DNA of 64,000 bases from Leucosporidium creatinivorum (taxonomy: Eukaryota; Basidiomycota; Microbotryomycetes; Leucosporidiales; Leucosporidiaceae). The translations under genes and the position numbers were made by a program. The notes below the pieces were generated by a model. The model was given only the letters and a program-made list of their open reading frames with translations, was not told where the DNA came from and made no database searches. The stretch is taken from the NCBI GenBank assembly GCA_001600635.1, contig BCKL01000020.1, positions 434,001 through 498,000 on the forward strand, given 5' to 3'. How positions within the stretch are numbered: position 1 is the stretch's first letter; each line of letters begins with the position of its first letter. Below are positions 30,213-56,944 of this stretch, one piece after another.

Positions 30213-32746
30213 CTACTTGGTCTTGTACTTGAGCACCACGCTCTTCTCCTCGGTCCAGCGCTTGAGCGAGTCGAGTCTGTGCGCGTGCGATCGGGTTCGG
30301 CGAGGGTTCGGCGAGGATTCGGGTCAGCTTCTTTCGCGCTCTGTTCTGCCTGCCTTTCTTGCCAAAGTGGAGAGAAACTCACCCGCCCTCTCGACCGATG
30401 CCAGAGGACTTGTAGCCTGTGGTCGAGTCGAGCGAGGTGGGAGGGAGCAGTAAGCAGGAGCGCAGGCCGAGCGCCGAGAAGAGAGAGAGAGAGCGGGGGA
30501 GAAGCAACGTACCGCCGAAGGGGATCTCATTAGCTCCAGCAGGGGAGGAGGTGTTGATGGCTACTGTTCCGGCCTAGGTTTGTTTCCCCTCCCGTGTCAG
30601 CGTGCGTTGCGAGGGCAAGGAGAAAAAAGGCAGGAGAGAGCGTCGGAACTCGAGACGGACCTGCAAAGCCTTGGAGACTCGCATCGCGCGGTCAATGTCT
30701 TGCGTGAAGAGGGCGGCGTCTGTTACCATCATCTCAATGTCAGTGGCTAGAGCTTGGAGAAAGGAGCAGGAGGATAGAGGCTTACAGAGCCCGACTGCGC
30801 GACAAGAGGGGGAAAGGTCAGCTCGGCGCTCAACTCGGCGGAGCGCAAGGAGGAGAAGGAGAGAGCTCACACTCGGAATCGTTCGCCTTGCGAATAACGT
30901 CATCCTCGTCCGTGAACTGGTGGATGACTCTGCAGCTCACAGCATCAGCGGGGGTCGGACAATAAGGAAGGCGAGCGGCTCGGCGAAACTTACACGACCG
31001 GGCCAAACACCTCATTCTTGTTCAAGTCACTGTGCTCCGCCACGTCGGTGAAGATAGTAGGCTGGATGAAGTAGCCCTTCCTCCCCCACACAAGCCCATA
31101 TCAGCGTTCATCCTTCCTCCGGCAAAACAAGCGAAAGGGAAACTCACCTCGGTCCCGACCCTCTCGCCCCCCTCGACGACCTTCCCGCCCTCCTTCTTTC
31201 CCCTCTCGATAAAGCCCAGAACGGCTTTTCCTTGTACATCGTCCGCTTGAGGGCCCATCGAAGTCGAGTGGTCCAGCGGGTCGCCGTGCTTGTAGCTGGA
31301 GAAGGCGGTCTTGAACTTCTCGAGGAAGGAGGCGTAGATGGAGGAGTGGACGTAGAGGCGCGAGTTGGCTGTCGGTAGGAAGGGGAGAGCCAGACGAGAG
31401 GTGTGGGAAGAGGAGAGGTTAGCGAGAGGCCGAAGGATTTGGAAGTTCGGGGCTCGGCGGAGGGAGAGCAGGAGGGGCCGGAAGGTACAGACGAGACAGG
31501 GAGCACAGACATACCCATGCAGATCTGTCCCGAGTTCCATGAGATCGAAAACGAGGCCGCGGGCACAGCAATGTCGAGGTCGGCGTCCTCGAAAATGATG
31601 CTGCCAGTGCGAGCGCCGAGAGTCAGCCTTCACGAGCGAGAGCAGGCGTAGGGCGATGTGGAACAGAAGAGAGCGTACGTAGGACTCTTGCCTCCCAACT
31701 CGAGAGCCACAGCCTTGAGGTTACTCTTCGCCGCCGCTTGGGCGACTGCTCGGCGAAGTCGGTCAGCTGTCTGCCCTTCTTCCTTCGCGCCTCTTGTTCG
31801 CTCTGATGTCAGCAAGCACAGAGACGAAGACTCACTCAACCTTCCAGTTCTAGTAGACCCGGTGAACGAGATCTTGCGAATCTCCATATGCTCAGCAAGG
31901 AAACGGCCCGTGTCGCCTCGGCCGGAGATGACTTGAATGATGCCCGAGGGGAAGCCCGCTTCGGTGGTGAGGGAGGCGAGGTGGAGGGCTCCCAGCGGCG
32001 ACTTCTCGCTTGACTTGACGATGATGGCGTTGCCGGCTGCGACGGAGGGGCCGACTTTGGAAACCCACCTGCTCGGCTTGGCTGTCAGCTCTCGCCTTCC
32101 GGCGCCCGTCAGACCTCGACTCACATGATAGTAGGTACATTGAAAGGCAGCACAGCCGCCGTCACTCCATAAGGCTCATGCCAGACCATATTAAGCGTTC
32201 CATCGCCCGAGAGGGAGGACGATTGCCCCACGAGTGATTGAGCGAGCGAGGCGTCCCAGCGGAGCTTGGAAGCTGAGACGGGGATGTCGAGAGCTAGCTG
32301 ACCGGAGACGGGGCGGCCCATGGAGATGGCGTCGAGCTGTGAAAGGGGGAGAGAGTAGGGTGAGTGAGCTGCTCGGCGAGAGCCCGGCGGTGGGAGCTGA
32401 GAGACTGTTGAAGCTTCGCGAAAGGCTTGCTACGATACAGCGCCTCCTCAGATGATCAATCAAGAGGATCACATGGACTCACCTCGCCAATCTTCGCCCC
32501 ATCCCTCTCGACCAACTGAGCGAGCTTCTCCAACTTTGCCGCTCGCTCTGCACCACTCAACGCAGCCCAGGCAGGTTGAGCGGCCTTGGCAGCGTCGACG
32601 GCACGGTTAATATCCTCAAGACCGGCCTCGTGTACGTCGGCGACGTGCTTGCCCGTCGAGGGATTGGCGAGAGGAAAGGTTGAGGGCGTGTGGGGCTCGA
32701 CGAAGGCGCCAGCAATGAAGAGACGGGATTCAATGGCGGGGGACAT
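30213..32746 (-). CDS. Aldehyde dehydrogenase (NAD(P)+), ALDH superfamily, paralogue 1
   Basis: ATG at 32746 ([18 protein letters not shown]); stop at 30213 after SVVLKYKTK. Exons assemble a full [24 protein letters not shown], cofactor-binding [20 protein letters not shown], nucleotide-loop [11 protein letters not shown], glutamate box [10 protein letters not shown], catalytic cysteine in [10 protein letters not shown], then [22 protein letters not shown], and C-terminal [14 protein letters not shown]. The start carries no obvious targeting peptide, so a cytosolic location is likely. It oxidises an aldehyde to the acid; the substrate cannot be read from sequence. It is related to the gene at 54599-56944 but uses different exon borders around the active site. 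Convergent with the secreted-protein gene. Confidence 0.92.
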
Positions 32747-54598: not shown

Positions 54599-56944
54599 TC
54601 AGCACTCGTGCTTCTCGTCAAACTTGATGAGGATGGTCTTCTCCTCGGTCCAGCGCTTGACGGCCTCGATGCTGCAGAGTGTAGTCTAGTCAGCTCAGCT
54701 CTCTTCTCCCCTCAGTCATATGGTAGTCCCGCGCGAGACCGAGAGACCAGGAGCACTCACCCGACCTCCCTTTCCACGCCCGACTGCTTCCACCCTCCGA
54801 AAGCGAGCTCATGCGCAACAGCAGGAGCAGCCGTGTTGACAGTGACGGTGCCGGCCTCGAGAGCCTTGGAAACGCGGAAAGCGCGGTCGACGTTACGAGT
54901 GAAGACGGAGGCGTAGAGGCCGTCTGTGCGTGACGAGACAAGAGGATCAGCTCGGCGATGGAGAAAGACGGCTGAGAAGACGAACACTCGGTATCGTTGG
55001 CGCGCTTGATCGCTTCGTGCTCGTCTTGGAAGGTGTGGATCACGCTGTGGACGCGTGTGAAGGAGGTCAGCTGGAGGAGGGAGAGAGCAGGCTTGGCGAC
55101 CGCTCGACTCACACGACGGGGCCAAAGACCTCCTCGACGTTGATCTTCGAGTGCTCGGGGACGTTGACAAAGATGGTCGGCTCGATGTAGTAGCCCTTCA
55201 AGCAGGAGCATCAGGTCAGCGAGGAAGCGAGGCAGCGCCGAGCGCGAAACAGCTCGCCTTGCCCTCAACCCTCACACCTCCCATCTCGAGCTTGCTCTCC
55301 TTCTTGCCAATCTCAATGTACTCGAGAACCTTCTTGCCCTGGATCTCGTCGGCTTGAGGTCTGTGGCGCGCGAGGAAGGAGTCAGCTCCACACTTTCATC
55401 TCGGCTCCGACCTTCAAGGTCAACTCACCCCGAAGTCGTCGACTTGTCGAGAGGGTCTCCGTGCTGATAGGTCCCAAAGACCTTCTTGAACTCTTTGATG
55501 AAGTCGTGCGAGATGGACTCGTGGACGTAGATGCGCGAACCGGCCTGTGGAGGGGGGGAAGGCGAGAGGTCAGCTTGCTCAGCGGGGAGTGTGAGGTCGA
55601 ACAACGACGAACGATGCAAGCTTGTCCGCTGTCTGTAAGGCGAGACGTGAGCACGTCGAAGGGAGAGAGAGCTCGACCACAGGACGCACTGAACTGGATC
55701 GACTGCGAGCAGGCGGGAACAGCCTCGCGCAAGTCGGCGTCGGCGAAGACGAGCCTGCGAGGAAGAGGGGTTAGCTGAACATCCAAGAGAGAGGGCCGAG
55801 ATAGTAGCTCACGTAGGACTCTTGCCACCGAGCTCGAGAGAGACGTTCTTGAGGTTCGAAGCGGCAGCAGCTTGAGCGACTGAGGGAGGGAGCGGGAGTC
55901 AGCGCCGAGCCGAGCTGGGCAAGGGGCATGTGGACTCACCGAGACGACCAGTGCGGACCGAGCCAGTGAATGAGATCTTGCGGATCTGCATGTGCTCGGC
56001 GAGAAGTTTGCCAGTCGCGCCGCCTCCGCTAAGGATCTGGATCACGCCGGGAGGGAAGCCAGCCTCGGCGATGAGATGGCCGACGAAGGCGGCCTGCGGT
56101 AGGCGCGAAGGGTCAGCTGTGGGGGTTAGCGACGTCGACCCTCAACTCACACTAAGAGGCGACTTCTCGGACGACTTGATGATGATCGTGTTGCCAGCAG
56201 CGACGGCGGCGAGCTTGAACACGAGCCTGCAGGGGATGTAGGTGAGTAGGGAGCCTCCGATAACAGGTGAAGATGACTCGCATAGTGATGGGAACGTTCC
56301 AGGGGAGGATCGCACTGCGCAGAAGAGAGGTCAGCTTCATCGCCGAGAGGCAAGTCGAACCGCTCGGCGTCAACGACTCACGCTGCAGGAGAAGGAAGAG
56401 TCAGCGCTTCTCCCTCCTGTAGGTGAATAGAAATACTCACCGCACACTCCAAAGGGCTGACGAACGCTCATGCCGACCTGCCCAGGCGTCAAGAGGGAGC
56501 TCTCGCCGAGGACCGACTGAGCGAGCGCGGCGTCGAAGCGAAGCCGTCCCGAGTCGATGGGGCTCATGTGCTTGCCGATACTGACAGGCTTGCCCATGGA
56601 GACGGCATCGAGCTGTACGCTAGCTGTCAGCTTACCCTCTACAGCCCACGCCGATTCTCGGTGCGAGCCGAGCTCACCTCGTTAATCTTGGTCGCCTCGC
56701 GGTCGAGCAAGTCGGCGAGACGGTTGAGGTGAGCTGCACGCTGGTGGACGGGCATAGCAGCCCAAGCAGGCTGAGCCTTCTGCGCACACTCGACAGCGCG
56801 GTCGACGTCCTCCTTCGAAGCGATGGCGATGTCTGCGAGGTGCTGCTCAGTCGCAGGGTTGCAGAGGCGGAACGTCTCCTCCTTGCTGCCCGAGCAGTGC
56901 TGATTGTTGATAAACAGGCGGATTTCGTAGCTGTGAGGGTGCAT
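54599..56944 (-). CDS. Aldehyde dehydrogenase, paralogue 2, with catalytic-cysteine microexon
   Basis: ATG at 56944 (MHPHSYEIRLFINNQHCSGS); ends ILIKFDEKHEC at 54599. Full ALDH fold across many exons: [83 protein letters not shown] (catalytic Cys), KGYYIEPTIFVNVPEHS, EEVFGPVV, and FGGWKQSGVEREVG. The residues NSGQACI are supplied by a 20-nt exon at 55613-55632, flanked by a 57-nt and a 68-nt intron. The paralogue at 30213 encodes the same motif in a normal exon. No targeting peptide is obvious; cytosolic location likely. Substrate unknown. Convergent with MON2. Confidence 0.92.
55613..55632 (-). other. 20-nt microexon carrying the ALDH active-site cysteine
   Basis: Bounded upstream by the acceptor CTTACAG (intron 55633-55689) and downstream by a GTTCGT donor (intron 55545-55612, CTGACC branch, CCACAG acceptor). 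With one base from the previous exon it encodes Asn-Ser-Gly-Gln-Ala-Cys-Ile; the Cys codon is at 55616-55618. Confidence 0.85.

Follow-up and report, generated by a model that had tools for sequence, protein, structure and literature searches.

Can a fungal aldehyde dehydrogenase (ALDH) carry its catalytic cysteine on an exon of only 20 nucleotides, and is so short an exon a switch or an ordinary product of splicing? The question is raised by a gene on the minus strand (54599..56944) of the window, by which we mean the whole 64,000-nt stretch of Leucosporidium creatinivorum DNA under analysis (C20:434001-498000), for which an earlier note had proposed a 20-nt microexon at the active site. Our results indicate that the microexon is probably genuine and included constitutively, in a functional ALDH gene of an intron-dense and microexon-rich genome where splicing would proceed by intron definition. 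An exon of 20 nt is ordinary for this fungus and, by itself, is a gene-annotation matter; that automated gene finders may overlook it, as the earlier note expected, is plausible. The same gene contains an exon of a single nucleotide, which is of a rarely reported kind and matters more.

The gene runs from an ATG at 56944 to a stop codon ending at 54599, and its 15 exons encode 483 amino acids. The Pfam Aldedh profile (PF00171) covers the whole domain in the spliced protein (residues 21-473, E 2.4e-150), and the best solved relative is human ALDH1A3 (E 4.6e-118). Assignment to a subfamily is less precise: none of the best 25 of the 45 NCBIfam families matched reached its cut-off, the top one among the matches listed being betaine-aldehyde dehydrogenase (419 bits vs a cut-off of 593). 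The protein contains all three of what we take to be the ALDH catalytic motifs, namely the Cys in GQxC, the Glu in ELGGK and the Asn in PWN, the last of these within the AILPWNVPIT segment carried by the 33-nt exon 4 (56282..56314). In addition to the 1-nt exon at 56382, two GC-AG introns were absent from the earlier note: intron 4 (56227..56281, 55 nt) and intron 11 (55196..55257, 62 nt), each of them GC-AG in a duplicate of the gene as well.

Exon 9 (55613..55632, minus strand) encodes the end of an Asn codon followed by SGQACI, so that the frame reads IQF-NSGQACI-AGSRIYVHE, and Cys284 (ALDH alignment numbering) sits at the position of the ALDH nucleophile. With its 20 nt it falls within the limit of 25 nt by which we define a microexon, and the introns on either side of it have usable splice sites: intron 8 (55633..55689, 57 nt, GTGCGT..CAG) and intron 9 (55545..55612, 68 nt, GTTCGT..CAG, with a branch-point-like CTGAC). 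For the interval from 55741 to 55524 we enumerated chains with no more than two GT/GC..AG introns and scored them against human ALDH1A3. The chain with the 20-nt exon ranked top among 381 in-frame chains (score 80); the second-best (74) also uses a microexon, of 16 nt with donor GTCCTG, and retains GQACI. No chain with fewer than two introns exceeded 50, and the one with that score is without the Cys motif. Spliced alignment, with introns 2, 3, 8 and 9 withheld from the training of its splice-site model, returned the identical 15 exons. Forbidding intron 8 changed the alignment score by -21.2, the 16-nt exon being chosen instead, and forbidding intron 9 changed it by -35.4. Shuffling the 145 nt between exons 8 and 10 with dinucleotides kept never reproduced the observed joint score (0/300), in a test that is mildly circular since its splice-site model rests on 103 ALDH training introns including this gene's. 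The exon proposed earlier was thus recovered exact to the base in three ways, by the gene model, the enumeration and the spliced alignment, and it supplies the NSGQACI stretch that had been ascribed to it, catalytic-position Cys included.

A close comparison is offered by an inverted duplicate on the opposite strand of the same contig (C20:516644-518976), about 26 kb away, which has the same 15 exons. Exons of the two copies are identical at 1402 of 1452 bases without a gap (50 differ); the introns match at 755 of 881 bases, to which 16 gap columns are added. The 20-nt exon itself is unchanged (20/20), intron 9 is identical at 48 of 64 bases with 5 gap columns, and intron 8 at 49 of 57. Two stretches (about 55295-54894, some 400 nt, and about 56812-56547, some 265 nt) are identical through introns as well, which may be read as gene conversion between the copies.

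Intron 8 gives rise to the alternative that survives best, namely that it is often or always retained, so that exons 8 and 9 and the 57 nt between them form one exon of a 502-aa protein. Its length is a multiple of three and it is stop-free in frame in both copies, so that retention would add 19 residues before the active site and keep GQACI; moreover, intron retention is described as the main type of alternative splicing in fungi (PMC3925392). We nevertheless regard this reading as unlikely. The intron has usable splice sites at both ends and diverges between the copies as introns do (8 of 57 bases, vs 50 of 1452 in exons), and no insert occurs at its position in human ALDH1A3 or in ten aligned ALDH paralogues.

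To place the 20-nt exon in context, we surveyed 11 ALDH genes of this genome, the duplicate being left out. Among their 107 internal exons, 13 are no longer than 25 nt, although two of these 13 (1 nt on C2 and 25 nt on C28) are doubtful. Introns have a median length of 65 nt, and 98 of 118 carry a CTRAY branch-point-like site in their last 55 nt. The 1-nt candidate on C2 is implausible, with intron scores of 4.1 and 0.2 vs a median of 17.2, and the 25-nt candidate on C28 borders a GC..GAG intron; a 1-nt first exon in the ALDH gene on C8 proved to be an end effect of local alignment. The earlier note was right that the paralogous ALDH gene at 30213..32746 (minus strand; 279 of 478 aligned residues identical) lacks the exon: it has no intron at either microexon site and reads WNSGQICM/A at the active site. 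The conclusion drawn there, that the structure is lineage- or copy-specific, is wrong as to the copy, since the duplicate has the same exon and two further ALDH genes have microexons elsewhere in the same motif, one on C4 with a 17-nt exon (F/YNSGQD/CC) and one on C28 with exons of 5 and 26 nt. When the 11 genes are aligned, residues 278-287 around Cys284 hold nine distinct intron sites, more than any other segment of ten residues. With intron sites placed uniformly, such a maximum arose in about 2% of 5000 draws (P about 0.02), a moderately significant result only; the scan test ignores the kinship of the genes and was prompted by the cluster itself. A scan of genome contigs for relatives yielded one bacterial relative only, which offers no comparison of intron positions. 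A phenylalanine ammonia-lyase fragment of the genome matches 1t6j/1y2m, the Rhodotorula toruloides enzyme, at E 1.6e-56, vs 3.3e-27 for the next match, a plant enzyme; this would fit a fungus, probably a basidiomycete of the Pucciniomycotina.

Microexons extend beyond the ALDH family. We scanned the genome (27.7 Mb, 63 contigs) for a strict motif consisting of GCTGAC, 8-22 nt, CAG, an exon of 1-25 nt and GTGAGT, the reversed pattern serving as control. The motif occurs at 162 places, vs 32 for the control, and among the matches listed a pyrimidine-rich tract without AG accompanies 67 of 100 (out of the 162). Further small exons were examined one by one. A gene on C5 for an E2 ubiquitin-conjugating enzyme (Pfam UQ_con, E 2.6e-33; 2ayv, E 2e-37) has a 4-nt exon, TGCC (C5 1076965-1076962, minus strand), flanked by introns of 63 nt and 57 nt. 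Its TGC encodes the Cys of GICLDIL, which we take to be the catalytic position. Other candidates include a 4-nt exon in a receiver-domain gene on C6, with a Pfam match below cut-off, and 8-nt exons in a hydrolase-like gene on C4 and a lipase-like gene on C9, with Pfam matches below cut-off or none. Candidate exons of 3 nt (C12) and 6 nt (C1) were unconfirmed on closer check. Ab initio gene prediction over the window, with this ALDH gene as training set, made 61 of 262 internal exons 25 nt or shorter and gave some of them no length at all. It was set aside as over-predicting tiny exons, and all microexon counts reported here are independent of it. A stricter run predicted no gene with a microexon in six loci of 701 nt, a length too short for a whole gene.

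These surveys bear on the proposal, made in the earlier note, that inclusion of the 20-nt exon acts as an on/off switch, regulated skipping turning the enzyme off. The consequence of skipping had been correctly foreseen: in silico, it shifts the frame and leaves a 332-aa product without GQACI. Precedents also exist, with a regulated microexon published for Trichoderma Xlr2 (PMC11121469), exon skipping documented in a fungus (PMC6616335) and alternative splicing reported for 6.4% of genes on average in 23 fungi (PMC3925392). The switch itself is unsupported, however, and we hold it to be distinctly improbable: the splice sites of introns 8 and 9 score in the middle range and are not marginal (33rd and 48th percentile, respectively, among the 118 ALDH introns, under a model trained with them included); microexons are common in this genome, by both the ALDH and the motif counts; and exon skipping is described as comparatively low in fungi (PMC6142364). 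Constitutive use of exon 9 would fit these observations better. Some mis-splicing is possible, given that the donors of introns 8 and 9 (GTGCGT and GTTCGT) are non-modal and intron 8 is without a CTRAY site.

A more unusual feature of the gene is exon 3, which consists of a single C at 56382 on the minus strand. Exon 2 ends ..GGAGTGTGCG and exon 4 begins TGCGATCCTC..; between them lie two complete introns, intron 2 (56383..56440, 58 nt) and intron 3 (56315..56381, 67 nt), separated by this one base. Both introns have the form GTGAGT..GCTGAC..CAG and rank at the 84th and 71st percentile, respectively, of the 118 ALDH introns, in a scoring model whose training included them. The C is the middle base of an Ala codon and is required for the frame; it yields GVC-A-AILPWN, matching GVC-G-AITPWN of human ALDH1A3. 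Homologues agree with this length, the paralogue at 30213, which has no intron here, and the human ALDH1A3 protein each showing one residue at the position of the 1-nt exon. The chain with the 1-nt exon scores best (57) among 102 in-frame chains, and the exon is kept in the duplicate from the same genome, again as a C.

Could the same stretch be spliced without a 1-nt exon? The best one-intron chain joins exon 2 to exon 4 in frame through a single intron of 122 nt (56436-56315, donor GTATTT), inserting one residue to give GVCGD-AILPWN, with a protein score of 52 vs 57. The protein score alone is no proof here, as 9 of 300 shuffles attained that of the 1-nt chain. When splice sites were scored jointly with the protein, none of the 300 did so. 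Further, forbidding introns 2 and 3 in the spliced aligner changed the score by -26.3, the price of a poor donor, of a length far from the median of 65 nt and of an extra residue in a conserved loop. The 122-nt intron would also leave two complete, well-scoring introns to chance, at a point where the paralogue at 30213 reads through in one exon. On these grounds we consider it very unlikely, and the 1-nt exon remains our preferred reading. Still less credit can be given to a spliceosomal twin intron (stwintron) in its place. Nested or abutting introns that are excised successively are known in fungi (PMC7138796), but the GTGAGT donor of intron 3 is intact and unsplit, and an outer intron with its donor at 56445, shortly before intron 2, would give PFGV-AILPWN, two residues short, the chain with the same product scoring 36 vs 57. 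Finally, that the odd structure of the gene reflects damage to a decaying copy is scarcely credible, given a dN of 0.010 and a dS of 0.126 between the copies (1449 bases; dN/dS about 0.08), no indels or stops in the compared exons and a full Pfam match; both copies look functional.

The 1-nt exon of the ALDH gene is not isolated. When the motif is restricted to exactly one exon base, it has five matches genome-wide and none in the reversed control, and four of the five, in three unrelated genes, are upheld by frame and homology. Two of these are the ALDH gene and its duplicate. The third lies in a sugar transporter gene on C36 (Pfam Sugar_tr, E 4.5e-59, in a partial model spanning profile positions 173-452 of 452), where the motif at 187318 delimits a 1-nt exon (C) at 187342. 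This base completes the Asn codon AA/C in QYIFNFLIVEITPIG, where the alignment with XylE has no gap and XylE likewise has Asn. An alternative with a 19-nt exon scored 24.2 vs 27.8 on splice sites, but it would add six residues, including two Arg, at a point without an insert in XylE. The fourth match lies in a weakly GDSL-like gene on C1, so named from a sub-threshold match, with the motif at 1103377 and a 1-nt exon (T) at 1103403. Here C/T/G completes a Leu codon in ITN-L-RVNQ, and a paralogue on C10 reads FTN-A-RIHQ in one open frame; the chain with the 1-nt exon scored 29.1, vs 13.7 for the best chain without it. The stricter gene finder also places the 1-nt exon in the transporter and GDSL-like genes, as partial models. 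For the second intron of the latter it takes an earlier acceptor than the chain we prefer (29.1 vs 28.2), with the 1-nt exon present in both. By eye, the fifth match (C30:147873) is a chance occurrence of the motif in coding sequence: the exon that contains it stays open and is followed, in frame, by an ordinary exon.

The strict motif captures a minor part of such cases. A GTGAGT donor is found in 39 of 116 introns and the acceptor side of the motif in 52 of 116, so that it would detect about 15% of intron pairs. Rough extrapolation leads to about 20 genes with a 1-nt exon, a figure based on three genes, and to a genome-wide total near 860 for exons of 1-25 nt, on the assumptions that the two sides are independent and that ALDH introns are typical. 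We favour, with some reserve, the broader view that exons of one to five nucleotides are in routine use in this fungus, that single-nucleotide exons recur in unrelated genes and that catalytic residues, the E2 cysteine among them, are carried on tiny exons.

How would such exons be spliced? Most likely, introns of about 65 nt are each recognised whole, across their own length, and recognition of this kind leaves exon length nearly free. Where two introns come to lie close together in one conserved coding stretch, presumably by intron insertion, the coding sequence between them would become a microexon. This may have happened twice in the ALDH gene, once for the 20 nt with the nucleophile and once for the single nucleotide upstream. 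Simultaneous binding of two splice sites separated by a single nucleotide is hardly feasible, hence introns 2 and 3 should leave one after the other. If exons of one to five nucleotides are indeed routine, this fungus would offer a natural test bed for minimum exon size under an intron-definition spliceosome. Fungal introns are described as generally small, and the excision of fungal twin introns as requiring that the splice sites closest to each other pair across the intron (PMC7138796).

Among the closest known systems is the single-nucleotide exon of Fusarium CYP621A, presented in 2026 as the first example from a fungal gene (PMC12940212). In the open-access literature on the one-nucleotide exon this was, judging by title and listing, the only paper on a fungal nuclear gene, and among the matches listed from the open-access literature we found no report of several single-nucleotide exons in one fungal genome. 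As described there, the two systems share one nucleotide between short fungal introns, the middle codon base, a conserved motif, phase matching and an intronless homologue as length marker. The Fusarium exon belongs to an ascomycete P450 and has the support of reads and of 20 orthologous genes (PMC12940212), whereas the 1-nt exons predicted here lie in three unrelated genes of one genome. In plants, exons of one nucleotide have been published in APC11 (PMC4674806) and VPS55 (PMC8831610). There too the exon is reported to be needed for the protein, and the VPS55 donor is GTRAGT, but the plant cases have RT-PCR and RNA-seq support (PMC4674806, PMC8831610). Xlr2 of Trichoderma virens likewise provides a fungal microexon without which a functional part is lost; in contrast to the constitutive use that we propose for ALDH exon 9, its inclusion is reported to depend on glucose (PMC11121469). 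Microexons are also known from the P450 genes of Phanerochaete chrysosporium, a basidiomycete, which are described as having small introns and exons of 2-10 codons over many genes (PMC1184071). The shortest microexon given in that account is 6 bp; in the present genome they go down to one nucleotide.
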